From Phycisphaerae bacterium RAS1 (GTDB lineage Bacteria > Planctomycetota > Phycisphaerae > UBA1845 > Fen-1342): a DNA stretch of 64,000 nt. Each line of letters starts with the position of its first letter. The stretch's first letter is position 1. Below are positions 36,329 to 61,827 of this stretch, piece after piece. The notes under the pieces are model-generated. The model had not been told where the DNA came from and searched no databases. It worked only from the letters and a program-made list of their open reading frames with translations. The stretch is taken from positions 1,612,001 through 1,676,000 of the forward strand of contig SMLU01000001.1 of the NCBI GenBank assembly GCA_007859745.1. Reading direction: 5' to 3'. The position numbers and the translations under genes were made by a program.

Positions 36329-36470
36329 GGGGCGAGTGTATCGGGAAGGGTGGACGGGGTGGCGTGTTCGGTACTGGCAAAGTTTTACCAATGCCGCGTG
36401 TTTAGCGTGGCTGAAATCGAGCGGCGGGTTGACGGGGCGGGGTTGGTCGACTAGTGTCAGGATACCCTGT

Positions 36471-38116
<1,646 letters not shown>

Positions 38117-40839: not shown

Positions 40840-42318
40840 TCAGTGTGTCTGCCGGAACGCCACGGGAAACCAGGTGCGTCCGTTTGGAAAGCGTCTGCCG
40901 CCCTGATAGACAATCGCGTGAGTTTCCCAGAGCGGCGGTTGACCCTTGGCGAGCGAGTTCAGGTCGGACGCCTGTAATTCAAATTCGTATGTCTCGGAGA
41001 AGCCCGCGGATGCGCCGCCGGGGGTGCCGCCGAACAGCGGCGACAGCCAGTCGTTGTCACGGGTGCTGTTGCCGTTCATCACGAACTGCCGCGATCGGCC
41101 GATGAGTTCCTGCACGTACTGGATCGTCTTCACATCGGTCTGCTGGTGAAACACCTGCGTTTGCAGATTCCCAAGCAGCGTATGAACCTTCGGCTCCGCC
41201 TGCGCGCCAAACACGTCGAGATACGTCGAAATCGACTGCGTGGCGTACACGACGGCGGTGCGGGTGCTGCGCGCGATGGTCTGGAACGTCTGGTCGGCGT
41301 CCACCGCGAGCAGATGACTCTCGTCGCAGACGATGAAGGTTGGGCGCGGGTTTGCTGCGACATTGCGCTGGCTGTGCGAGCGCTGCCAGCAGAATTTCAG
41401 AATCACCTGGATGAGCTGTCCGATGTCGCGGTACACGAGCACCGGAAAATCGGCGATCAAGACCTTGCCGTCATACATCATCTCGGGCGAGACATTCGGG
41501 TTTGGAGATGAAAGGAGGTCTCTCGCCGCACCGCGACTCAGCGCATCCGTCGCGGAGGTCAGGGTGCTCTGCACAACCGATCTCGTGCGCGAACTGAGGG
41601 CGGGCCACTCGTTCAGGAAGTATGTAAGCGCCAGGTCGAAGTCGGCGCGTTGCGAGTCGTTCTTTGACGCCTGGTCCGCTGCGTGCAGGCACTGGAAACA
41701 GAACGAGCTGTTCTGCCAGTCGGTGCTGGCCACCTGTTCGAGAGAAACGGGCGCCGTCGTGATTAGCCGATGCAGGTCGGGGACGGTGACGCGTTCGCGT
41801 CCCAGGACCAGTGCGAGCAGACCGTTTCGCGCTAATCGCGTCGATTCCAACCGGAAATAACGCTCGTTGTCACGGCCGCCGCCGCCACCGTTACCGCGCT
41901 CAGTCAGTTCGGTGACGGTCATAAGCAGGGCCGTCAGGTTCTCGACAAGGCCGACAGCGCCTGCGCTCTGCCTTCGCTCCGACTCGATGAAGTTGTAACG
42001 AAGCTCATTCGTCTCCGGCGAGAACACCATCAGGTCGTCAAGGCGGCCCGCCTCCCTGGCATATCGCGTGTAGGTGTCGCGGTCTTCTCGCTTCGCACAG
42101 AGAAACAGCCCTCCAAATCCCGCCGCCAGAAAGGCGCGGCAGATCGCGGCAAGTGAGCCGGAAGTTTTTCCGGAACCGGTGGAGCCCCAAATCTGCGTTC
42201 CGGAAAAGGCCGACTCCACGTTCCAAGGCACGCCGTCGGCCCAGTACAGGAGCGGCGACGACCGATCCCATCTCGATTTCGCAGCAGAACGCGCACGGGT
42301 TTTGATGAGCCAGCCCAT
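40840..42318 (-). CDS. type IV coupling protein (TraD/VirD4/TraG-like ATPase)
   Basis: A 492-residue P-loop ATPase that would bring relaxase-bound DNA to a transfer channel. Walker A is IWGSTGSGKTSGSLAAI, Walker B PTFIVCDESHLL, followed by ARSTRTAVVYATQS. The N-terminus lacks the usual pair of membrane helices, so it is the soluble type or uses the small membrane protein encoded downstream. A Gly-rich loop (RGNGGGGGRD) lies in the middle. It is 11 nt downstream of the ParB-like gene. Confidence 0.82.
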   Translation of the reverse strand: MGWLIKTRARSAAKSRWDRSSPLLYWADGVPWNVESAFSGTQIWGSTGSGKTSGSLAAICRAFLAAGFGGLFLCAKREDRDTYTRYAREAGRLDDLMVFSPETNELRYNFIESERRQSAGAVGLVENLTALLMTVTELTERGNGGGGGRDNERYFRLESTRLARNGLLALVLGRERVTVPDLHRLITTAPVSLEQVASTDWQNSSFCFQCLHAADQASKNDSQRADFDLALTYFLNEWPALSSRTRSVVQSTLTSATDALSRGAARDLLSSPNPNVSPEMMYDGKVLIADFPVLVYRDIGQLIQVILKFCWQRSHSQRNVAANPRPTFIVCDESHLLAVDADQTFQTIARSTRTAVVYATQSISTYLDVFGAQAEPKVHTLLGNLQTQVFHQQTDVKTIQYVQELIGRSRQFVMNGNSTRDNDWLSPLFGGTPGGASAGFSETYEFELQASDLNSLAKGQPPLWETHAIVYQGGRRFPNGRTWFPVAFRQTH

Positions 42319-42329
42319 AACCCAACTCC

Positions 42330-43133
42330 TTAGTTCGCCTGGTCACGAAGCGTGCGGACGAAGGTTGCTAACGACAGGCCCTGAGATTTCGACCTCTTTG
42401 CTCTCGACAGCAGTTGTTCGAGGGTTTCGATCAAGCTGTCGAGCGACAGCGCTTTGCCGGCGACCGTGATAGACCGACCGGCGCCGAGCAGCGCCGTCAC
42501 GCGGTTCGGCCCGACACTTCCGCCCGCTTCCGCGCGACGCGCCCGCCGGAGCTTGCGCTGCAATCCGTCTCGCGACAGCTTGCCGTCCGCCGCCTCCTGC
42601 GCAAGCGACGCTTGCCGCGCCGGATCATCGACGCGGGCGAGGAGATAGGCCGAGTCCGCCGATAGCTCGCCGCTTGCGAGTTTCGCTTTGATCGCGTCGG
42701 GCAGCTTGAGCAGGGCAAGTTGGCGCGAGACCGTAGCGGGACTCTGGCCGAGTCGCTTTGCGACCTGGTCCGCCGTCATCGCGCCTTTTTCCATGAGTTG
42801 GCGCATTCCCTCCGCGCGATCGAGCGGACTCAGATCCTCGCGTTGGAGATTCGACACCAGGCTGCTTGCAAGCGCATCGACCGCCGTCACGCGGTCGGCA
42901 GCGATGAGCACGGGAATCGTCTTCCAGCCGAGCGTATGGCACGCGCGAAACCGGCGCTCCCCATCGATCAATCGCAGCGTGTCCTTTTCCTGGGCGCAGA
43001 GCACCGGCTGCTGCAATCCCGACTCGGCGATGCTTTCGGCCAAGCCGGCGATCGACTCGGCCGAAAACTGCGTACGCACCTGCGGCGCGACCGTGATACG
43101 ATCGAGCGGAACGGATTGAAGCGTCAGATTCAT
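42330..43133 (-). CDS. ParB/Spo0J-family DNA-binding protein
   Basis: A 267-residue protein. The N-terminal ParB nuclease/CTPase-like domain has IAESGLQQPVLC and RLIDGERRFRACHTLGW, followed by the ParB box NLQREDLSPLDRAEGMRQLM. A helix-turn-helix follows (TADQVAKRLGQSPATVSRQL). No ParA partner is present in the window, so it may act as a maintenance factor or transcription regulator of the operon. Its start overlaps the DUF1232 stop by 4 bp. Confidence 0.88.
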   Translation of the reverse strand: MNLTLQSVPLDRITVAPQVRTQFSAESIAGLAESIAESGLQQPVLCAQEKDTLRLIDGERRFRACHTLGWKTIPVLIAADRVTAVDALASSLVSNLQREDLSPLDRAEGMRQLMEKGAMTADQVAKRLGQSPATVSRQLALLKLPDAIKAKLASGELSADSAYLLARVDDPARQASLAQEAADGKLSRDGLQRKLRRARRAEAGGSVGPNRVTALLGAGRSITVAGKALSLDSLIETLEQLLSRAKRSKSQGLSLATFVRTLRDQAN

Positions 43134-46081: not shown

Positions 46082-46136
46082 TGTCACACAATTGTCATGT
46101 GTTCGTCACAATACTGTCACATAGAACTGATATTGT
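46082..46136 (+). promoter_or_regulatory. Pho-box-like promoter 1 (four 11-bp repeats)
   Basis: TGTCA, TGTCA, CGTCA and TGTCA begin at 46,082, 46,093, 46,104 and 46,115, each 11 bp apart. TATTGT, a fair -10 box, begins at 46,131, exactly 16 bp after the last repeat start. There is no -35 box in the classical sense. This is the arrangement of PhoB-activated promoters. It reads towards 46,184. Confidence 0.75.
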
Positions 46137-50911: not shown

Positions 50912-51092
50912 ACATATTGCCTTCTCATGGTTGTTTCTTTGATAATGGCACAGCGGGTGAATGGGCGCAACAACAATCTGCGTCCACGGCAACAGCCGTG
51001 TCCGCAGACGCTCACACGGTCCGATTCCTATTGATAATATATTTTATCGTGCTATCCTCGCGGCACTTCACCACTCCAACCCAGATGTCCTT

Positions 51093-52109
51093 ATGCCGTT
51101 CGATGTCCCCACTCCCCAGACCGTCCATCCCGTTCAAACTACCCGCCGGCTGACCGATGACCAGTTTCTCCGTCTGGCCGCAGTTCCGCCGGAAGTGGAA
51201 TGGTTCGCCAACCTCACCAATCCGAACACGCGCCGCGCCTACGAGAACGACGTGCGCGACTTCATGGCATTCGCCGGCATCGTGCGGCCGGGAGAGTTCC
51301 GGCAGGTGACGCGGGCGCACGTCATCGCATGGCGGGATACGCTCCGCGCGCAGCCGGTGGAGGGCGGCAACGGGGATCGATGCCTGTCGCCGGCATCCAT
51401 CCGCCGCAGGCTCTCGGCGCTGGGTTCGCTGTTCGACTATCTGTGCGACAGGAACGCCGTCACTCACAACCCGGTAGACGGCATCGAGCGTCCCAACGAA
51501 GGCGTCAACGAGGGCAAGACGCCGGCGATCGGCGATGCCCAGGCCCACCGCCTGCTGGACGCACCATCGAAACATACGCTAAAGGGCATCCGCGACCGGG
51601 CTATTCTCGCCGTGCTGCTTTATCACGGGCTGCGCCGCGACGAATTGTGCAAGCTTCGGGTCCGCGACCTTCAGGAGCGACGCGGCGTCAAATGCCTCCG
51701 CGTTCACGGCAAGGGCCGCCACGGAGCGAAGATTCGCTATGTCGAAGCCCATCCGGCGGCGCTGGAGCGCATCGCCGAATATCTCACGCTTGCCGGTCAC
51801 GGCGAGGACATGGACGGGCCGCTGTTTCGGCCGATGCGGAATCGCGGGAACGTGAACCAGCCGTTGACCGCGGGCGCTATATATATATGCGTGGCAAAAC
51901 ACTATGCCCGCGCCGCCGGCATCAGCGACTGCGAATTCCGCGTGCATAGCCTGCGGGCAACCGCTGCGACGAACGCTCTGGAGCACGGCGCCGACATTGC
52001 CAAAGTGCAGGCGTGGCTTGGCCATGCGAGCGTTGCGACGACGCGGCTCTACGACAAGCGCGAGAGCCGGCCGGAGGATTCACCGACATTCAAGGTGTCG
52101 TACTCGTAA
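51093..52109 (+). CDS. tyrosine recombinase (integrase)
   Basis: A 338-residue phage-type integrase. The N-terminal SAM-like domain includes [20 protein letters not shown]. Catalytic residues are visible: Arg in [14 protein letters not shown], Lys in [16 protein letters not shown], HxxR in [18 protein letters not shown], His in [10 protein letters not shown] and the Tyr in TRLYDKRES. Its 3' end (51,915-52,135) is repeated at 52,842-53,062. The promoter region 50,990-51,090 is AT-rich with a TAATAT-like box. Probably mobilises a nested cassette. Confidence 0.9.
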
Positions 52110-52135
52110 CCGACAATCCGCCACAAGGCCGCTGC
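51915..52135 (+). repeat. 221-bp direct repeat, copy 1 (integrase 3' end)
   Basis: The last 195 bp of the integrase gene plus 26 bp after its stop match 52,842-53,062 with a few substitutions (offset 927 bp). Both copies end at GGCCGCTGC. Confidence 0.9.
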
Positions 52136-52159
52136 ATCTCGGCCTGCGGCCTGCGTCGC

Positions 52160-52442: not shown

Positions 52443-52712
52443 TCAGCCGGCCGGAACTCCCAGGATGCCCTCGGTCTCAGCGGGCCGTCCGCCCGGCGCG
52501 GGCCTCCACGTCCAGTCTTCATATCTCCAATACCCATTGGCATCAGATGCGATTCGTCTCTCCTCCCCGAAGTCGTTGAGACAGATATTGATCAGACCGG
52601 GCAGTTCGCACCGATGGTTCACGGTGCCAAGGCAGCGAGGCCATGCCTGCGCGGGCTTCGCACTGCCGATGAGCGCTGCTGCAAGCAGCGCATATGTACT
52701 CATGTGATTCAT
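52443..52712 (-). CDS. small secreted protein
   Basis: An 89-residue protein with a signal peptide (STYALLAAALIGSAKPAQA) cleaved before a Trp (AQAW). The mature part has three Cys (WPRCLG, HRCELPGLINICLN) and a Trp-rich turn (GYWRYEDWTWRPAPG). No family is recognised. The start at 52,712 is preceded by GGAGGGG. A TATAGT -10-like box lies upstream on the minus strand near 52,741, without an 11-bp repeat array in that direction. Confidence 0.6.
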   Translation of the reverse strand: MNHMSTYALLAAALIGSAKPAQAWPRCLGTVNHRCELPGLINICLNDFGEERRIASDANGYWRYEDWTWRPAPGGRPAETEGILGVPAG

Positions 52713-52793
52713 GCTCCCCTCCATGTTGTTACCACCCTACTATACACCATGATACACACCACCGTGAAGCATACAAGCCGATCAGTGCCACAG

Positions 52794-52842
52794 TTTCATC
52801 AAACTGCCACGATTCTGTCACGCAACTGTAACATACACGCTG
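52794..52842 (+). promoter_or_regulatory. Pho-box-like array without its -10 (orphan promoter)
   Basis: TTTCA, TGCCA, TGTCA and TGTAA begin at 52,794, 52,805, 52,816 and 52,827, in 11-bp register. The expected -10 would start at 52,843, and the integrase-end repeat begins at 52,842, so the promoter is cut off at that point. Confidence 0.6.
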
Positions 52843-53036
52843 CCGGCATCACTGACTGCGAATTCCGCGTGCATGGCCTGCGGGCGACCGCTGCGACGAA
52901 CGCGCTGGAGCACGGCGCGGACATCGCCAAGGTGCAGGCATGGCTTGGCCATGCGAGCGTTGCGACGACGCGGCTCTACGACAAGCGCGAGAGCCGGCCA
53001 AAGGATTCACCGACATTCAAGGTGTCGTACTCGTAA
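52842..53036 (+). pseudogene. duplicated 3' end of the tyrosine recombinase
   Basis: Encodes the last 64 or so residues of the upstream integrase ([20 protein letters not shown] onward) with several changes (S to T, S to G, E to K). It lacks the rest of the gene and any start signal. The repeat continues to 53,062. Confidence 0.9.
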
Positions 53037-53207
53037 CCGACAATCCGCCACAAGGCCGCTGCTTCTTCTGAATAGTCGCATGGGCCTGATTCCGTGAGAG
53101 GGGCGTAGCGCAGCCAACGGTAACTGACAAAGACACGCTCATTCAGCGGGTTACCCGATGAAGGACCCCACCGGTTACCCGCAACCCGCCATCAGTGCGC
53201 AGCCACT

Positions 53208-53262
53208 TGTCACATAAATGTCACACAATTGTCATCAAACGGCAACATTGTGCTGTTATGCT
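53208..53262 (+). promoter_or_regulatory. Pho-box-like promoter 2
   Basis: TGTCA begins at 53,208, 53,219 and 53,230, and a weak fourth (GGCAA) at 53,241, all 11 bp apart. TATGCT begins at 53,257, exactly 16 bp after the fourth. It reads towards 53,352. The leader is about 85 nt. Confidence 0.72.
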
Positions 53263-53351
53263 GGATCAATAAGCTCACATCTGCAGCATCAATACATGCC
53301 GCCGGACGACGCTTGAGTACATCACAAGCAACCACTCTTGGGGAGGAGACA

Positions 53352-53807
53352 ATGAACACACGAACATTATCGACGCAGGCCCTGCGTCGTACATCTGCGC
53401 TGGCGACACTTGCGCTGCTCACGCTTGCACAAGCGTCCGAGGCGCGCGCGTGGGACACCGACACCGGCGAGTGCGCCGCTCGCTGCTGGTATGATTCGCC
53501 AACAGCAGAAGGCCGGCTTGCCTATCGTAGCCGGGCTACTGGGCGCGAGTGGCAGACTTCGCTCGGGCCGATTGAATGGGCGTGGTTATTTGACCAGTTG
53601 CACTCACGTTGCCAGGCGGCGGTAGCGGAAGCGGTGTGCTCTCTGTCGAGGCGACTCGGAGACGGCTGCACCGTTATTCGTGTATCGAGTTTTTGTGATG
53701 ACCTGGGCTACAAGGCACTCCCGAGGCTCCCCGGCCTTCCAAGCCCCGTGTGTCAATCGTCCTTTACGGTACCGTGCCCTTCCGGCGACGACGCGTCGGC
53801 ACGATAG
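53352..53807 (+). CDS. small secreted Cys-containing protein
   Basis: A 151-residue protein. The signal peptide (SALATLALLTLAQASEARA) is cleaved before Trp (ARAW). The mature part has nine Cys, for example TGECAARCWYDSP, LHSRCQAAVAEAVCSLS and GDGCTVIRVSSFCDDLG. No family is recognised. It starts with GGAGGAG upstream, below Pho-box-like promoter 2, and lies directly upstream of the nucleotidyltransferase gene. Confidence 0.65.
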   Translation: MNTRTLSTQALRRTSALATLALLTLAQASEARAWDTDTGECAARCWYDSPTAEGRLAYRSRATGREWQTSLGPIEWAWLFDQLHSRCQAAVAEAVCSLSRRLGDGCTVIRVSSFCDDLGYKALPRLPGLPSPVCQSSFTVPCPSGDDASAR

Positions 53808-53824
53808 AGTCCAGCCGCGTGCCG

Positions 53825-54910
53825 ATGTTACGCCATACGCCAGGCCGCGATATCGCGGCCCGGTTTGCGGCGAATACCGGAGTCGAACAGATGTTGCGGC
53901 TACTCAGGGGCGCCGGCATCGAAACGGTTTATGTTGGTGGATGCGTTCGCGACGGACTACTCGGCACCTGGCCCGCCGATTTCGATATGCTGATAGCTGC
54001 CCCGCTGCCTGACGCGCAGGCTCTTCTGAGCGCGGCCGGGTTCCCTTCCAATATACTGGCATCCTGGCTTGGACCAGTGCGGACGCTCGTGCGAGGGGAG
54101 CAGTTCGATCTCATACATGCCTGGCCCGGCTGCCCGACCCTGTCATTCGCGCAGTCGGTCGACTGGTATGTTGATCAGGCGGATTTTACTATCAATGCCA
54201 TGTACTTGACGACGGAAGGCGGGCTGACCGACCGGCATGGCGGTGCTGCTGACCTTGACGCCGGTATCGTCCGATTCATGGGCGATCCCTGCGAGGCACT
54301 TCGAGCCAACATACGGCAAATCGTGCGGTATTTTCGATTTCTCGCATGGTACGGCAAGGGAACGCCGCACGGCCCAAGCCTGGAAGCAGCAATTGCCGAC
54401 GCGCGGCACATGGCTGACACCGACAGCGAGAGGGCCCGCAACGAAGCGATCAAGCTTCTCAGCGCTCCCCGGCCTTACGACGTGCTTTCGCTGATGCATC
54501 AGCGCGGCGTCCTCAAATACGCACTTGGTGTCGCGATTGAGGGCACAGACTGGCTGGAACGCCTAGCCCGAATCGAGCGGATTCTCGGCGTCCCGTCCGG
54601 CTGGCAGGTGCGGCTGGGGGCATTGTTGCTGTCGGCGTGCATGTCGCCCGATGCTGCCCTTGAGCACGTGGTCCAGTACTGGCAGCTAGAACCCAAGCAC
54701 GCCGAACGCGTTGCGCTAATCGTGGATTATGCACTCTGTCTCGACCCAACGGCAGCCGAGCCAGCGCCAGGAGCGCCGGACCACATTCCCGACGCGGCGG
54801 TGCTGCGCGACGCTCTGCTGCTGCGCTGGCTGTATGAAGCGGATAGTGAAGCGGTGATACCACACTACATGCGCGCCTTAGCGGCTATCCAGGTCGCACC
54901 TGATATGTGA
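53825..54910 (+). CDS. CCA-adding-enzyme/poly(A)-polymerase-like nucleotidyltransferase
   Basis: A 361-residue class II nucleotidyltransferase homologue. The head has YVGGCVRDGLLGTWPADFDM with the GG, RD and DxD elements. The neck begins at ADFTINAMYLTTEGGLTDRH. The phrase ANIRQIVRYFRFLAWYG matches the RxxRF motif, although the usual Glu-Asp before it is missing, as is the Arg pair before DFTINA. SERARNEAIKLLSA matches the ERxxxE motif. The host must have its own CCA enzyme, so a different substrate is possible. Start is uncertain (GTG 53,750 and GTG 53,819 also fit). It is probably co-transcribed with the secreted-protein gene before it. Confidence 0.75.
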   Translation: MLRHTPGRDIAARFAANTGVEQMLRLLRGAGIETVYVGGCVRDGLLGTWPADFDMLIAAPLPDAQALLSAAGFPSNILASWLGPVRTLVRGEQFDLIHAWPGCPTLSFAQSVDWYVDQADFTINAMYLTTEGGLTDRHGGAADLDAGIVRFMGDPCEALRANIRQIVRYFRFLAWYGKGTPHGPSLEAAIADARHMADTDSERARNEAIKLLSAPRPYDVLSLMHQRGVLKYALGVAIEGTDWLERLARIERILGVPSGWQVRLGALLLSACMSPDAALEHVVQYWQLEPKHAERVALIVDYALCLDPTAAEPAPGAPDHIPDAAVLRDALLLRWLYEADSEAVIPHYMRALAAIQVAPDM

Positions 54911-54919
54911 CGGCGCGAT

Positions 54920-54974
54920 AGTCACGCAACTGTCACCATACTGTCATAATACTGTCACATATCACTGGTATAGT
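54920..54974 (+). promoter_or_regulatory. Pho-box-like promoter 3
   Basis: AGTCA, TGTCA, TGTCA and TGTCA begin at 54,920, 54,931, 54,942 and 54,953. TATAGT begins at 54,969, exactly 16 bp after the last. The strongest array in the window. It reads towards the small ORF at 55,050 and the sigma-like gene. Confidence 0.78.
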
Positions 54975-55049
54975 GTGAAGACGCGCCCGAATACCGCAGC
55001 GATTGTTGCCTTGCCGGGCCGTGTCACAACCGATCGTCATGGAGGATAT

Positions 55050-55139
55050 ATGATCACACTTTCTAAACGCAACGACTCGGCCCGCCCGCGCCGCGCCGGG
55101 GTGCAAAGTGTCACGGAATCGTCACATACATGTCTGTAG
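55050..55139 (+). CDS. 29-residue ORF downstream of Pho-box-like promoter 3
   Basis: Begins MITLSKRNDSARPRRAGVQS and ends ESSHTCL. A strong GGAGG lies 5 nt before the ATG, so translation is likely. The 3' half overlaps the next 11-bp repeat array. It may be a leader peptide or a small cargo protein; no function is known. Confidence 0.45.
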   Translation: MITLSKRNDSARPRRAGVQSVTESSHTCL

Positions 55140-55141
55140 CG
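55109..55141 (+). promoter_or_regulatory. Pho-box-like array 4
   Basis: TGTCA, CGTCA and TGTCT begin at 55,109, 55,120 and 55,131, again 11 bp apart. No good -10 box stands at the usual distance, so activity is uncertain. It precedes the 49-residue ORF and the sigma-like gene. Confidence 0.5.
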
Positions 55142-55179
55142 GGCATGAGGCGGAACGCCAATCACATCAGGGGGGTCAC

Positions 55180-55329
55180 ATGGGAGTGCCGATGATACAT
55201 CTCAATCGTATGCGCGTCAGCGCAGACGTAAGCGATGAGGCAAGAGCGAATGGGCCGGCTGTGCTGGCCCCGCAGCTGGCCACCGCCACCAGAGTCGGAA
55301 CATCGGCAGCGAAGGGACACAGTCGGTGA
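55180..55329 (+). CDS. small hypothetical protein coupled to the sigma-like gene
   Basis: A 49-residue protein (MGVPMIHLNRMRVSADVSDE...) with AGGGGGG before its ATG. Its stop overlaps the GTG of the next gene in GTGA, so the two are translated together. It might be an anti-sigma peptide or just a leader; no domain is seen. Confidence 0.5.
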   Translation: MGVPMIHLNRMRVSADVSDEARANGPAVLAPQLATATRVGTSAAKGHSR

Positions 55330-56372
55330 GCAGCGTCGGCATTCTGCACCCGCTCAGAAGGCCGGCCATGTCGCCGACGCCGAATCTCATTGATCCGAAG
55401 GTCGTTCCCTATCACGGTCCGGCTGAGTTGGAGGAGAGCTGGAGACAGTTTGTCCAGACCTACACGCATCAAGGCACCAGCGCCTATAACGCGCGAAACG
55501 CCGCGCTTCTCAATGCAGTGGCTTTCGGCGACGGCGGCGCGGCGGCGCTGACGCGCGAGTATTCCGGCGATCCCGATGGGCTCACCCGGCTGCGGCGGAA
55601 CGTGGAGGACGCCATTCTCACCCTCGGCAATCTCACCGAACGTTTGGCGCCGATGCGGCTGCTGCACAAGACAATTGTCACGAGCCTCCTGGATCAATGG
55701 GTGGACGTTCGGACGCAGCATGGCGTTTACGCCTCTCCCACCGGCCCTGGCCTCACGGAGACAGAGCACAGTGCGCTGGCAGCCAGCGCTGCCGCCGCGA
55801 TCAAATCGCCCGTCGGGGGACTTCTGGCGGGCTCCCTGAGAATGGCGTTCGATCGGATTCTGGGCGCCGAACTACATCGGCTACGCGTCCGTGGCCGGGA
55901 CGATGAAGAGCGGGTCCCGGTGCTGGTTGAGGACGTGTTTCATCGGACGCTCTTCTCGTACGATCCCAGCCGCGGCGCACAATTCGGGAGCTTTCTTACC
56001 GGCGGTATCCGGAACTTCGTGCAGCAGAAACTGCGCCAGCTGAAGGGCGCGGCTCGCGTTCAGCGCAACACCGTATACTCGGTGAACTGGACCGCCGCTG
56101 ATCGGGCAGCGGCACAACCACCGGATGCAAGAATCTGCGTCACCGAGGATATCGAGCGGCTACGCCAGATGCTCGATTCCCTAGAGCCCTTATCACGACG
56201 CATCCTCGAACTACGGTTTGGCCTGGCAGATGGGATCGAGCACACCTACAAGGACATCGGCGCGAAGCTGGGCATAACGCTTCAGAATGCCCAGCAGAGG
56301 GTCGAGAGGGCCTTAAGCAGGTGCCGCGAGCACACCGGGGCCGGTACTTCCGGTCCGGGCAACTCTCGATAG
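55326..56372 (+). CDS. sigma-70-like transcription factor
   Basis: A 348-residue protein. A region-2-like part lies at LVEDVFHRTLFSYDPSRGAQ, then FGSFLTGGIRNFVQQKLRQL. Region 4 at the C-terminus reads LDSLEPLSRRILELRFGLAD, then YKDIGAKLGITLQNAQQRVE, a clear sigma-type HTH. The N-terminal 150 residues match nothing known. It starts with GTG coupled to the 49-residue ORF. The gene lies under Pho-box-like promoters 3 and 4, so it could relay that signal to other element genes. Confidence 0.75.
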   Translation: MSSVGILHPLRRPAMSPTPNLIDPKVVPYHGPAELEESWRQFVQTYTHQGTSAYNARNAALLNAVAFGDGGAAALTREYSGDPDGLTRLRRNVEDAILTLGNLTERLAPMRLLHKTIVTSLLDQWVDVRTQHGVYASPTGPGLTETEHSALAASAAAAIKSPVGGLLAGSLRMAFDRILGAELHRLRVRGRDDEERVPVLVEDVFHRTLFSYDPSRGAQFGSFLTGGIRNFVQQKLRQLKGAARVQRNTVYSVNWTAADRAAAQPPDARICVTEDIERLRQMLDSLEPLSRRILELRFGLADGIEHTYKDIGAKLGITLQNAQQRVERALSRCREHTGAGTSGPGNSR

Positions 56373-56412: not shown

Positions 56413-56467
56413 CTTCATCAAAGTGTCACGGCATTGTCACAATACTGTCACATAAATACCATATGAT
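56413..56467 (+). promoter_or_regulatory. Pho-box-like promoter 5
   Basis: A weak CTTCA at 56,413 is followed by TGTCA at 56,424, 56,435 and 56,446, all 11 bp apart. TATGAT, a near-consensus -10, begins at 56,462, exactly 16 bp after the last. It reads towards 56,519. Confidence 0.78.
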
Positions 56468-56518
56468 AAACTGCGTGTGCACGCAAGGTGCGGCATATGT
56501 ATAGCAATGGAGAGTATT

Positions 56519-56872
56519 ATGATCAGACAGTTACTAATGGCAGCCACAATATGCGTGTTATGTATGCCAGCAACGGACGCGCGCGCCTGGGTACAGCCCG
56601 GCGGTGAGCCATTTCTGGATGGACTCGGCGGCAAGTCGGGAGGCGACTGGTGGCGATCAACGTATGGCGGGTTCTATATTGATCACGCCGTCGGAATCTA
56701 CCCGGGTCCGGTCTGCTCAACCAACATATTGTTTGGCCAGATCGAAGGCGGACCCGAAGCGGGGTACCTGTGCGTCTGGGCGTGCAGCGGCTCAAGCGGG
56801 TCGTACTTGATGAGCAATCCGCCGGATGAGGGCGGCACCTGCACCTGCCCGGCCGCGTGCGGCGCTCCATAG
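56519..56872 (+). CDS. small secreted Cys-containing protein
   Basis: A 117-residue protein. The signal peptide (LLMAATICVLCMPATDARA) is cleaved before Trp (ARAW). The mature part is rich in Gly, Trp and Tyr (GGKSGGDWWRSTYGGFYIDH) with Cys pairs at the end (CVWACSGS and CTCPAACGAP). No family is recognised. GGAG precedes the ATG and Pho-box-like promoter 5 lies about 55 nt upstream. Confidence 0.65.
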   Translation: MIRQLLMAATICVLCMPATDARAWVQPGGEPFLDGLGGKSGGDWWRSTYGGFYIDHAVGIYPGPVCSTNILFGQIEGGPEAGYLCVWACSGSSGSYLMSNPPDEGGTCTCPAACGAP

Positions 56873-58196: not shown

Positions 58197-58607
58197 TCAC
58201 TCATCCCACGCAATCTGATCGATGGTCACGGCATTCGGGGCGGCCTGAAGCGATTCCGCGCGGTCCGCTTCTCGAATCCACGGCACACGATGCCGGATGA
58301 TGCCATCGAACAGCCGCACGGTCGGACGTGCTTCCGAGTTCAGACCTGAGCCGGCAATCCGGACGGTGCGACCGGGCAGGTGCAGCGTGATCCCGTCGTC
58401 CGGTGCAAACTCTACCCGCTCAATCCAGGCGTAGCCGATCGCCAGGACATGGCCGTCCTTCTTTCGGAGTTCCAGCATGATCGAGCGGTCGCGCACGCCG
58501 CGGAGCCAGCCGAAGCAGCCGAGATTCTCCGCGTCGTCGTGGTCGGGCTCCTCGTTGGAATTGGCGGCGGTCCGGCGCGTGAGCCGGTCGAGCATCCTAT
58601 CGGTCAT
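58197..58607 (-). CDS. hypothetical protein of the relaxase operon
   Basis: A 136-residue protein starting MTDRMLDRLTRRTAANSNEE. The second half is beta-rich (RSIMLELRKKDGHVLAIGYA, DGITLHLPGRTVRIAGSGLN). No domain is recognised. It overlaps the relaxase end by 11 bp and so is probably translated with it. Confidence 0.6.
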   Translation of the reverse strand: MTDRMLDRLTRRTAANSNEEPDHDDAENLGCFGWLRGVRDRSIMLELRKKDGHVLAIGYAWIERVEFAPDDGITLHLPGRTVRIAGSGLNSEARPTVRLFDGIIRHRVPWIREADRAESLQAAPNAVTIDQIAWDE

Positions 58608-61266
58608 AGTCTGGCCGCTCCCTTCCGTACTCACGTTCCGCGCCGCGCGTCCAGGTCGCCACGCCCTCAGCAACACGCTCGCGCGCCATGCGGCTCCTGA
58701 TCGCCGCGCAGTCGGCCGCAAGCTCGGTCGCGCTCAGCCGCTCGTCGCTGCGGCTGACCGCGGCAAGCAGCGATTCCTTGTCGTCGGTAAACACCAGCGC
58801 CTGCTCGCGGCCGCGCGAGGCCGACACATAAAACTGCTCACGGCTCGATGCCGGAAAACTCTGCGACGACTGGCCGATCAACACGCGATCGACGGTTTTG
58901 CCCTGGCTCGCGTGGCTGGTAACCACAATGCCATGCGTCAGATGCCCGTAGTGCCGGCCGATGACAAACGCCTTGGCCGGGTTTTTCTCGTCACGCGGCG
59001 CGACCAGCAGGTCGCCGTTATCCGTGAATCCCCTCACCCGGAAGATGTCGCCGTTATTGAGCCGGCGCGCGCCGCCCTCGCCGGTGCCGCCTTTGGTGAT
59101 GCGGATATCATCGCCCGCCGACAGATCGATCTCGGCGCTTCGGAATACCGAGAAACGCTCGGCCTGGTCGAGCGGAAGCGGCCCCTCTCCCACCAGCACG
59201 CGCTGTCCCTTGCGAAATCCCTTGGAATTCTGGTGAAACACCAGCACGTCGCCTTGCCGGTAATTGACCGGATCGCGGCGCTCGCCAAGCGTGAGGTTCG
59301 CCGGGATCAGTTCCAGGAACCGGCGCTCTTCGCTGCCAATCAGCCCGCGCTTGCGAAGCTGGCTGCGAATCTCCGCGGTGATGCGATTGCCCTCTGCGTG
59401 GGTCGGCGACACTACAAGCGCCGATTTGCCCTGCGTCACCGTCTCCACGTACGCCGCGGCGAGCGCGCCGTCGCGCTCCTCGTCGGCCACCTCGCGAATC
59501 CAGCCGAGATCGTCGAGCCGGCGGAACCCCTCCTCCGTCCGGTCCTCGCTCAGATCCTTCACGGCGGCCCTGTATTTGTCTTTCTGCCGCTGGATTTCCC
59601 TTATCTCCGCCGGCCTGAGTCCCGCCTCCTGTTCCAAAAGGCGCAGCGCCGCGCCGCGCTCAACCGAACCGTGCTGCCTGCGATCCCCGGACAGCACGAC
59701 ACGGGCATCGAGCGCATCCGCCAGCTCGAACACCTCGCGCATGGTCCGCGTGCCCATCTGGCCTGCCTCATCGATCCAGATGACGCCGCCCCTCGCCTCC
59801 TGCTGCAACTCGCGGTCGACAAGGAGGCGCGCCACCGTTTCCGCAGTCGGGAAGCCCGCCGCGCGCAGCACGTCGCGGCTTGCGCTCGCCGACGGCGCGA
59901 ACGCGAGCACCCGCTGCCCGCCGGTCTCGATGGCCTCACGGGCCTCTTCCATCATCGTGGTTTTGCCCGAGCCGGCGACGCCGCGCACCAGGATTACCCG
60001 GTCCCTCGATTCGACGACGTGGCGGACGGCGGCTTTCTGGCCGGGATTGAGCCATTCGCGATTGAACCGTGTTAGCCCGGGATTGAGTGGACGGCAAGCG
60101 CCGCGCCCGCTGCGGGCGAAAGACAGCATCCGGCTTTCCTCTTCGAGCACCTGCTGTGTGCTGATCATGCGCCGGCCGCGGCGGACGCCGCGAAGCATCG
60201 GCTGCTGGCCGACCAGCGATTCAATCGTGCGTTGCGACGCCTTTCCCGTGCCCTGCCTGAGCGCCGCGGTGAGCAGCGTCCGCTCCGGCACCACCGAGGC
60301 ACGCTCGAAGGTATGCTCGATTGCCCGCTGCACGGCCTCCCGCGCCGCGTCTCCGTTCTCGCCATACCCGGCTTGGCCGATGCGTTTCGCCAGCGCATCG
60401 AGATCGCCCGATTCCTTCTCATCGAGCCGCTCCGCCCAGGCGGCTTTCAGTTCAGGCATGGTCAGTTCCTTCGCCTTGCCCGAGCGCGTCTGCGCTCCGA
60501 GTGCCGCCTTCGCGTCCGGATCGGTGATGCCCCGCTCGCGCGCGAGCTTTTCGATCCGCGTAGTTCGCCGCGAGAAACCGGCGAGCGTATCCGCGCCGAT
60601 ACCCTTGAGTTCCCATCCTTTCGCGGTGCGCTCCGTCGCAAGCCCCAGCTCTTCCATCCGGCGCGCCAGCCGCGCGTGAAACACCGCCTCGAAGTACGGG
60701 GCGTCGCGTTTGAGATCGCCGAATTGCCCGGCCTTCCAGCGTTGCTCTTCGGCGTCGAACGTTGCGTTGAAGGCAAAGCAGTGGGCATGAAGATGCGGGT
60801 CGGGAACCCCGTCTTCCGGGCGCGCCGTGAAATGGACGAACTCGCCCCAGACCATGTTGCCGGTAACGCGGTCCTCGTTGCGCCCGCCTGCGCGCACGCG
60901 GGCCTTGCTCTCCGCCTCGATGTCCTGCATCGTGTCCTCGACCGAGTCGCGGAACGCCGTCAGGATGCGCTCGTCCTGAGTAATTCCGTAAAGCAGCGAC
61001 ACGCTCTTCGGGCAATGGAAATTGAAGTCATAACCGACGCGGCGATCGGCTTTACGACGTACCGTAAGTGGCTCGCCCGACTGCGGCACGCAATTGTCGC
61101 ACAGCCGGTCCCAATCCGCCCGATCGACGATTCCGGACAATCCGAGTCGTTTCGCGCCCTCGCCGCGCCAGAAGCCGACCAGTTCCTGGCCCTCGGAGTA
61201 GTAATCGGCGGTGCTGTAGTAGCTCTTGGCGCGGGATGCGCTGTTGCTTTGGGTAATGCGAAGCAT
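58597..61266 (-). CDS. MobF-type relaxase-helicase (TrwC/TraI-like)
   Basis: An 889-residue protein. The relaxase domain has catalytic tyrosines near SYYSTADYYSEGQELVGFW and the three-His metal site PDPHLHAHCFAFN. The superfamily 1 helicase has Walker A VRGVAGSGKTTMMEEAREAI, Walker B GGVIWIDEAGQMG and a C-terminal SHASQGKTVDRVLIG motif. It would nick at oriT, unwind and pilot the strand through the coupling protein. Start at 61,266 (MLRITQS) is the family's usual N-terminus. Confidence 0.93.
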   Translation of the reverse strand: MLRITQSNSASRAKSYYSTADYYSEGQELVGFWRGEGAKRLGLSGIVDRADWDRLCDNCVPQSGEPLTVRRKADRRVGYDFNFHCPKSVSLLYGITQDERILTAFRDSVEDTMQDIEAESKARVRAGGRNEDRVTGNMVWGEFVHFTARPEDGVPDPHLHAHCFAFNATFDAEEQRWKAGQFGDLKRDAPYFEAVFHARLARRMEELGLATERTAKGWELKGIGADTLAGFSRRTTRIEKLARERGITDPDAKAALGAQTRSGKAKELTMPELKAAWAERLDEKESGDLDALAKRIGQAGYGENGDAAREAVQRAIEHTFERASVVPERTLLTAALRQGTGKASQRTIESLVGQQPMLRGVRRGRRMISTQQVLEEESRMLSFARSGRGACRPLNPGLTRFNREWLNPGQKAAVRHVVESRDRVILVRGVAGSGKTTMMEEAREAIETGGQRVLAFAPSASASRDVLRAAGFPTAETVARLLVDRELQQEARGGVIWIDEAGQMGTRTMREVFELADALDARVVLSGDRRQHGSVERGAALRLLEQEAGLRPAEIREIQRQKDKYRAAVKDLSEDRTEEGFRRLDDLGWIREVADEERDGALAAAYVETVTQGKSALVVSPTHAEGNRITAEIRSQLRKRGLIGSEERRFLELIPANLTLGERRDPVNYRQGDVLVFHQNSKGFRKGQRVLVGEGPLPLDQAERFSVFRSAEIDLSAGDDIRITKGGTGEGGARRLNNGDIFRVRGFTDNGDLLVAPRDEKNPAKAFVIGRHYGHLTHGIVVTSHASQGKTVDRVLIGQSSQSFPASSREQFYVSASRGREQALVFTDDKESLLAAVSRSDERLSATELAADCAAIRSRMARERVAEGVATWTRGAEREYGRERPDYDR

Positions 61267-61827
61267 GGGGCGGCATCCTGCCACAGAACTCCGGCGAATG
61301 GGTTAACGACCCATTCGACGACGATTCGCCAGTTCCTCACCCTAAGTATTGCGTCGGTATCGGCAGTTGTTGCAGGGACTTTGCCGTGTATGTGTCATCT
61401 TCTTTCCATTGCATGAGGCACATGCGCCCGCGTCCCGCCGGCGAATCAGTCCGGCCACGACAGCGAATCGCCGGGCGCGGCACGGAAGTGCAGGGTTCAG
61501 CCTTGCTGTCGGCATCGGCTCGCGGGAGCGTGTCGCCCTTCGTTCGCTATGCACAGCCGGCGCAAGCGGTCGCCCGTTTGCGGGTCGTGCGGCTGGATTG
61601 TCCCCTCTTCTTCCGTCGTTTCCCGCATCCTCACGGCCTGATTGAAGGCATCGCTAAAGCCGCCGCCGGTCCGGTCAAGCAGAAAATCGTTTCCCCTGAA
61701 GGGACCCACCATTTTCCGCTGTGACCGGTGCGCTTCGCTCGCGCTCGCCCCGCCTGTAGCGGCTTTCTTCCGCGTGCCATCAGGCCGCGATGGTCGCGGC
61801 CGGAAACGAAGAAAAGGAGACATCACC
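61267..61827. other. intergenic region upstream of relaxase; candidate oriT
   Basis: No gene is supported in this 560-bp stretch. A perfect 9-bp inverted repeat (61,295-61,303 with 61,309-61,317, CGAATGGGT type) lies 29 bp upstream of the relaxase start. That is the usual neighbourhood for a MobF origin of transfer. The right part holds the duplicated leader described separately. Confidence 0.4.
61655..61827 (+). repeat. duplicated leader, copy 1
   Basis: About 170 bp before the ATG at 61,828 share blocks with 63,715-63,883: CGCCGGTCCGG-CAAGC, TTTCCGCTG, GTGCGCTTCGCTC, and a hairpin GGCCGCGA-TGG-TCGCGGCC (61,783-61,801). The hairpin ends 26 nt before the start codon, just upstream of the AAGGAG ribosome binding site. 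Confidence 0.75.

Follow-up and report, generated by a model that had tools for sequence, protein, structure and literature searches.

A strongly diverged class-II tRNA nucleotidyltransferase on a conjugative-type element of Phycisphaerae bacterium RAS1

What could a gene that looks like one for a CCA-adding enzyme do on mobile DNA, in a bacterium that has an ordinary cca gene elsewhere? The question is raised by a locus in the genome of Phycisphaerae bacterium RAS1, which we studied within a stretch of 64,000 nucleotides (contig SMLU01000001.1, positions 1,612,001 to 1,676,000), called the window in this text. The gene runs on the forward strand from an ATG at 53825 to a stop codon ending at 54910, which gives 361 codons; the open frame extends further upstream, to a GTG at 53750. 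Its 361 aa product, which is Cca2-like in the sense explained below, is referred to as the window protein (Table 1).

A nucleotidyltransferase with an altered template

The initial annotation had recognized the head and neck motifs of tRNA nucleotidyltransferases and poly(A) polymerases in this gene. This identification holds, since both Pfam domains score above their cut-offs (PolyA_pol with 41.1 bits, cut-off 23; PolyA_pol_RNAbd with 25.1 bits, cut-off 22). The structure prediction it had proposed gave a confident AlphaFold model (pLDDT 91.9, pTM 0.90, from an input of 57 sequences) with the head-neck-body fold of a class-II CCA enzyme. The model matches the human CCA enzyme 4x4w_B with a Z score of 29.9 over 329 residues (rmsd 3.1); for CCA-adding enzymes of the alphaproteobacterial/human type as a group (human TRNT1; 4x4w, 1ou5 and 8cbm), Z ranges from 27.5 to 29.9 over 321–329 residues. 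Human CCA enzymes are also the nearest PDB entries by sequence, and CCA enzymes are the nearest named families. With the superfamily signature of GG...R, DxD and a third carboxylate (G38, G39, R42, D52, D54 and D95) in place, the window protein is a class-II tRNA nucleotidyltransferase, albeit a strongly diverged one: its scores fall far short of the cut-offs in all curated CCA and PcnB models listed.

Two known identities were examined and discarded. Poly(A) polymerase I (PcnB) belongs to the same superfamily, and its gene is known to spread horizontally, according to the accessible portions of PMC8208693. The pcnB model is the best scoring of the curated models, but with 61 bits against a cut-off of 305.65, and visual inspection of the window protein did not reveal the PAP signature [LIV][LIV]G[RK][RK]F given in the same portions. 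The gene is not the housekeeping cca either, because the host genome has a separate, ordinary one (C1:335994; L001:1261-2673) that encodes RRDFTING and EDHLRLIR. A phylogeny against this host gene had also been proposed in the initial annotation. In our trees the host enzyme groups with those of its own phylum, while the window protein is found among alphaproteobacterial enzymes and viral enzymes of that type.

To read C and A, enzymes of class II rely on two amino acids in place of a nucleic-acid template. In the available text of PMC3925840, PMC7014341 and PMC8563995, a template Asp and Arg are described as pairing with the incoming base, a second Arg/Asp pair as stacking beneath it, and a flexible loop as the C-to-A switch of the CCA enzyme. 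Engineered changes of the template allow class-II enzymes to add other nucleotides (PMC3925840, same restriction). We compared these elements in an alignment of the window protein with 189 others, which comprise 186 ordinary homologues (some of them near-identical, phage ones included) and three second copies from tandem gene pairs that are described in the next section.

The window protein retains G38, G39, R42, D43, D52, D54, D120, R168 and R171, so that the stacking pair D120 and R168 is intact. Two alterations had been pointed out initially, and both are borne out by the alignment. The Arg pair before D120-F-T-I-N-A is replaced by Q118 and A119, where 186 of 186 homologues have RRD, and the Glu-Asp before RxxRF is replaced by A161 and N162, against E in 185 of the 186 (Q in the remaining one) and D in all of them. 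The changes go further than this. Position 165 is Q rather than the R of all 186 homologues, and at position 95 the window protein has D, which it shares with the three tandem second copies, as opposed to E (181/186) or Q (5/186) in the ordinary homologues. From position 95 to 120, the flexible-loop stretch counts 26 residues instead of 30–35 and contains no DGR. Finally, about 60 residues are missing from the C-terminal tail, including the segment 'G.DL...G...GP..G..L'. The Thermotoga CCA enzyme uses Asp as its third carboxylate, as stated in the accessible part of PMC3925840, and position 95 appears from our alignment to be equivalent to it.

Table 1. Features of the window protein, its gene and the surrounding element
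Feature	Position	Strand	Basis
tRNA-Met, left edge of element	36470..36544	+	
Serine recombinase, end overlaps tRNA-Met	36503..38116	-	
Conjugative coupling protein, TraG/TrwB type	40840..42318	-	
ParB-like protein	42330..43133	-	
Tyrosine recombinase	50961..52109	+	
Pho-box-like triple TGTCA direct repeat, 11-bp period, upstream of secreted-protein gene	53207..53234	+	
Small secreted-type protein gene (signal-peptide-like start, ...ARAW)	53352..53807	+	ATG 53352, stop 53807
Cca2-like class-II tRNA nucleotidyltransferase gene, 361 aa	53825..54910	+	ORF, Pfam, structure model
Motif A, residues 38-54, GGCVRDGLLGTWPADFD; catalytic D52 and D54 kept	53936..53986	+	Alignment
D95, third catalytic carboxylate	54107..54109	+	Alignment; role PMC3925840
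Shortened stretch at expected site of DGRH-type flexible loop	54110..54175	+	Alignment
Residues 118-120, Q-A-D replacing invariant R-R-D	54176..54184	+	Alignment
Residues 161-165, A-N-I-R-Q replacing nucleotide template E-D-x-x-R	54305..54319	+	Alignment; PMC7014341, PMC3925840
R168, stacking-platform arginine, kept	54326..54328	+	Alignment
Second Pho-box-like cluster, directly behind window gene	54919..54957	+	
TrwC-type relaxase/helicase	58597..61284	-	

Read against the published residue roles, the alignment indicates that the metal site and the stacking platform were kept and that the letter-reading parts were lost. Selections for A or CCA repair in the human CCA enzyme yielded no replacement of the template Asp or Arg, as far as the accessible text of PMC11784652 reports. 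Since both residues are lost here, the window protein is probably not an enzyme that adds CCA, CC or A.

This combination sets it apart from its closest known relatives. With the TRNT1-type enzymes it shares DxD, the third carboxylate and the stacking Asp/Arg pair, but it lacks the RR before D, the E-D-x-x-R template, the DGR loop and the end of the tail. Bacterial CC-adding enzymes, which act as partners of an A-adding enzyme, resemble it in their short flexible-loop region, a hallmark of that group (PMC7014341), and their first template residue is known to vary (PMC11784652), as in A161. However, their five core motifs are retained and include the template Asp and Arg, in contrast to N162 and Q165; all these statements on CC-adding enzymes follow the portions of PMC7014341 and PMC11784652 that are available. 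Phage-borne tRNA nucleotidyltransferases (phrog_2244) belong to the same enzyme family and also reside on mobile DNA, but the copies examined keep the template Asp and Arg. A first set of viral copies was ordinary at RRD and at the template Asp throughout (80/80), and 77 of 78 further viral loci retain both RRD and D..R. The remaining locus (L303), a nucleotidyltransferase gene on a viral contig, encodes HRD for RRD with an intact E-D-R template.

Tandem second copies in alphaproteobacteria

Elsewhere, the altered pattern was found only in three second copies that lie behind a normal cca. Motifs were read in 164 homologous loci (80 from viruses, 80 from genomes and 4 from phages or plasmids), and one of these has the pattern. 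This locus (L137) comes from a Rickettsiales-labelled MAG (G452), where the variant gene, cca2, lies directly behind an ordinary cca and overlaps it by 4 bp. The same tandem is present in two more genomes, G529 (L249) and G508 (L250), so that it occurs in 3 of 16 genomes examined of one alphaproteobacterial family; it was first found among 174 genomes of the order. In G508, whose second copy is far more diverged than the other two, the 4-bp overlap holds for an ATG at L250:6195, and the annotated frame is open further upstream. A convergent response-regulator gene follows the tandem in all three genomes. Another genome of the order (G482) has two cca copies that are both ordinary. A search of 385 genomes of the class at E 1e-50 gave a strong match in G452 only, with weaker matches at three loci (L275-L277) outside the motif reading; weakly matching second copies in other genomes could escape distribution searches of this kind.

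The three cca2 proteins have S or N for the template Asp and D for the third carboxylate, and they lack the Arg pair and the tail. Their loop stretches count 29, 29 and 23 residues, the two of 29 being just one residue below the ordinary range of 30–35. All three retain the template R165, which the window protein alone has lost. Each of the four altered proteins thus has D52, D54, D95, D120 and R168 but neither D162 nor the Arg pair, while RRD and D..R are present in 186 of the 186 others.

Between G452 and G529, dN/dS is 0.13 both for cca2 (0.197/1.517) and for the ordinary cca (0.289/2.214), with synonymous distances near saturation. The equal values argue that the altered type is a retained gene in those genomes and not debris, and the 4-bp overlap suggests that the two proteins are made together. 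A literature search, which did not cover subscription journals, brought up no published description of such a cca paralogue. Within the literature searched, the tandem relative of the window gene in a few alphaproteobacteria would therefore be an undescribed sister gene.

The window protein shares with the tandem cca2 proteins the Asp at position 95, the loss of RR and of the template Asp, the short loop stretch and the absence of the tail. Its gene differs in its setting, as it does not follow an ordinary cca but a gene for a secreted protein. We consider common descent of the four proteins probable. In a mixture-model tree computed with the diagnostic columns removed, they form a clade with support of 99/97, which is placed beside the ordinary cca of the family that carries cca2 (96/84). 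The clade still forms when one or the other group of cca2 rows is left out, with support down to 98/65 and 89/84 and with a warning of the program about joined long branches. Without any cca2 rows, the window protein falls into no group of 20 rows or fewer, and other placements are not rejected by AU tests (p 0.13–0.38). It has 9, 8 and 6 rare residues in common with the three cca2 proteins; with the 186 others it shares 1.6 on average and at most 6. The counts for the cca2 proteins exceed only slightly those of other divergent proteins, which can have as many as 7 in common with a partner. The losses could also be convergent.

Closer relatives were sought widely. None above about 40% identity to the window protein was found, and single-protein scans of genome and viral contigs produced no close relative. 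Searches of 61 related genomes and of 392 genomes of the phylum returned ordinary-looking matches only; 38 of these loci were read for motifs and all 38 have RRDFT, the regular expression for the ED motif having missed some of them. At E 1e-30, 114 genomes of the order to which the window genome belongs contained no copy besides the one in the window genome itself. There was no match to the gene at the DNA level in plasmids, and the four plasmid protein matches that were opened are alphaproteobacterial or Enterococcus records.

Possible functions

The reading we prefer, with a probability of about one half, is that the window protein is a neofunctionalised class-II tRNA nucleotidyltransferase, active but with a changed nucleotide choice, that travels as cargo of a conjugative-type element. 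We favor an active enzyme of this kind because four proteins, although very divergent, have preserved the residues that bind metal, catalyse the reaction and stack the base, but not those that choose it. An alphaproteobacterial cca would have been duplicated and then moved onto the mobile element. The protein would still bind metal-NTP and extend an RNA by a nucleotide at its 3' end, with a tRNA or tRNA-like end as the likeliest substrate, and its nucleotide choice would be other than C, C, A. It may thus modify tRNA ends in a way that the host's ordinary Cca undoes. On the other side, the window copy alone has lost Arg165, which could mark inactivity, and the purifying selection is that of the cca2 pair of G452 and G529, the window copy having no relative above about 40% identity. 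The initial annotation had considered a non-tRNA role, for instance in defence or RNA tailing. A role other than CCA addition is supported by the lost template Asp and Arg (PMC11784652, within its accessible text), but the defence part finds no counterpart among the PADLOC models, none of which matches the window protein.

A natural branch that has the catalytic core but a replaced reading head would be a ready experiment on nucleotide choice by template-free polymerases, and it could bring to light a tRNA 3'-end modification of a new kind. The tandem arrangement of cca2 with an ordinary cca offers a direct genetic handle.

A more specific version, rather improbable in our view, is a new functional class of class-II tRNA nucleotidyltransferases with a rewritten template. 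It starts from the amides Asn162 and Gln165 in place of Asp and Arg. We speculate that this pair could reverse the donor/acceptor pattern of hydrogen bonds, so that the window protein would read U or G and write tRNA ends other than CCA. In the alphaproteobacteria such a writer would be made together with a repairing Cca as eraser; on the element it would act alone, on tRNAs of the host or of an invader.

The main rival to an active enzyme is a pseudoenzyme that adds no nucleotides, binds tRNA ends or the ordinary Cca and regulates them. Such a protein could do without the Arg pair, template, loop and tail, which are lost here, and the 4-bp coupling to a normal cca in three genomes would suit a partner protein. 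However, pseudoenzymes usually lose their catalytic carboxylates. Here, four proteins that differ greatly in sequence all have the three carboxylates and the stacking pair, and the window copy stands alone with the host Cca gene at a distance, so that we regard this explanation as possible but doubtful.

A special case of the preferred reading would be a part of a tRNA-poisoning defence or toxin-antitoxin system. The window protein would be similar in effect to the MenT toxins if the nucleotides it put on tRNA ends were wrong ones. The toxin MenT3 attaches cytidines to the ends of tRNAs, an action that the CCA enzyme counteracts (PMC11541572, accessible portions); by this example, a tRNA-end writer opposed by a CCA enzyme can exist, and the cca-cca2 pair would fit the same logic. 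Genes resembling those of Cas12b, GmrSD and type I methyltransferases are located to the right of the window, but at a distance of tens of kilobases. MenT belongs to another family (8an5_A matches the fold weakly, in the head only, with Z 7.6 over 102 residues), no recognised antitoxin is seen beside the window gene, and there is the lack of a PADLOC match mentioned above. We therefore consider this case quite unlikely.

Plain decay and ordinary tRNA repair are less likely than a pseudoenzyme. A captured cca gene in decay might look like a single copy without close relatives, on a long branch and with its tail missing. The gene has an intact frame of 361 codons with a coding-type base composition by codon position (0.71/0.48/0.67), its product has a confident predicted fold with all catalytic core residues kept, and its cca2 relatives are under purifying selection, all of which makes decay very unlikely. 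Least probable is an ordinary CCA- or CC-adding enzyme in an auxiliary role, with which the element would mend tRNA ends: although CCA enzymes are the nearest named families, phages carry such enzymes (PMC7824862) and a missing loop marks bacterial CC-adding enzymes (PMC7014341), the template Asp and Arg kept in 186 of 186 homologues, phage ones included, are replaced here, and selections in the human enzyme yielded no substitute for them (PMC11784652; all three sources as far as accessible).

The element and its repeats

The initial annotation had described the gene as mobile cargo, and its surroundings agree with this. It is located among genes for a serine recombinase at a tRNA-Met, a coupling protein, a ParB-like protein, a tyrosine recombinase and a TrwC-type relaxase, while the host cca is elsewhere. 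An integrase at a tRNA, a relaxase and a coupling protein are the signs of an integrative conjugative element, and they support the view that the window gene is cargo of an integrated conjugative-type element. The G+C content around the gene is about 60–62%, compared with 65–70% in the left part of the window. Between the tyrosine recombinase and the window gene there are recombinase fragments, and the end of the tyrosine recombinase gene forms a 229-bp direct repeat (51911-52139 and 52838-53066, 94% identical).

To the right of the window we noticed genes for a Cas4-Cas1 fusion and a Cas12b-like protein of 1474 aa (L026:11475-18021 and C1:1705353-1708158), adjoining a tandem array with a period of about 71 bp that resembles a CRISPR array. 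A likely defence cluster (L027:13921-18511) encodes a DUF1848 protein, for which the PADLOC model is filed under DRT, a GmrSD-like protein and a type I methyltransferase.

As had also been noted initially, the window gene follows a gene for a secreted protein; the latter, on the same strand, ends 18 bp before the start of the window gene and its product has no Pfam match. The claim that the window gene lies under a Pho-box-like promoter stood in part. The repeats do exist and are almost confined to this region, but the upstream one precedes the secreted-protein gene and the other is found behind the window gene. The triple TGTCA with an 11-bp period has 11 matches in 155 kb, compared with 0–1 in 10 random controls. 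They overlap in six clusters (46082-46121, 52794-52833, 53207-53234, 54919-54957, 55109-55137 and 56413-56463), all on the + strand between 46.1 and 56.5 kb. The perfect form CTGTCAT-N4-CTGTCA occurs once, at 54941-54957, just behind the window gene. The repeats resemble binding sites of PhoB/OmpR-type regulators and may serve as such; a promoter scan of 52700-55400 gave no sigma-70 site on the + strand. Several clusters are located upstream of genes for small secreted-type proteins with a signal region ending in A.AW.

Allowing at most one mismatch, six of the seven TGTCA repeat sites in the whole genome are in this region. The seventh (L279, C1:1024098-1027124) precedes a gene for a small secreted protein that is 47% identical to the product of 56510-56872. 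This site adjoins a tyrosine recombinase fragment and a transposase-like ORF, an arrangement that perhaps represents a type of mobile cassette.
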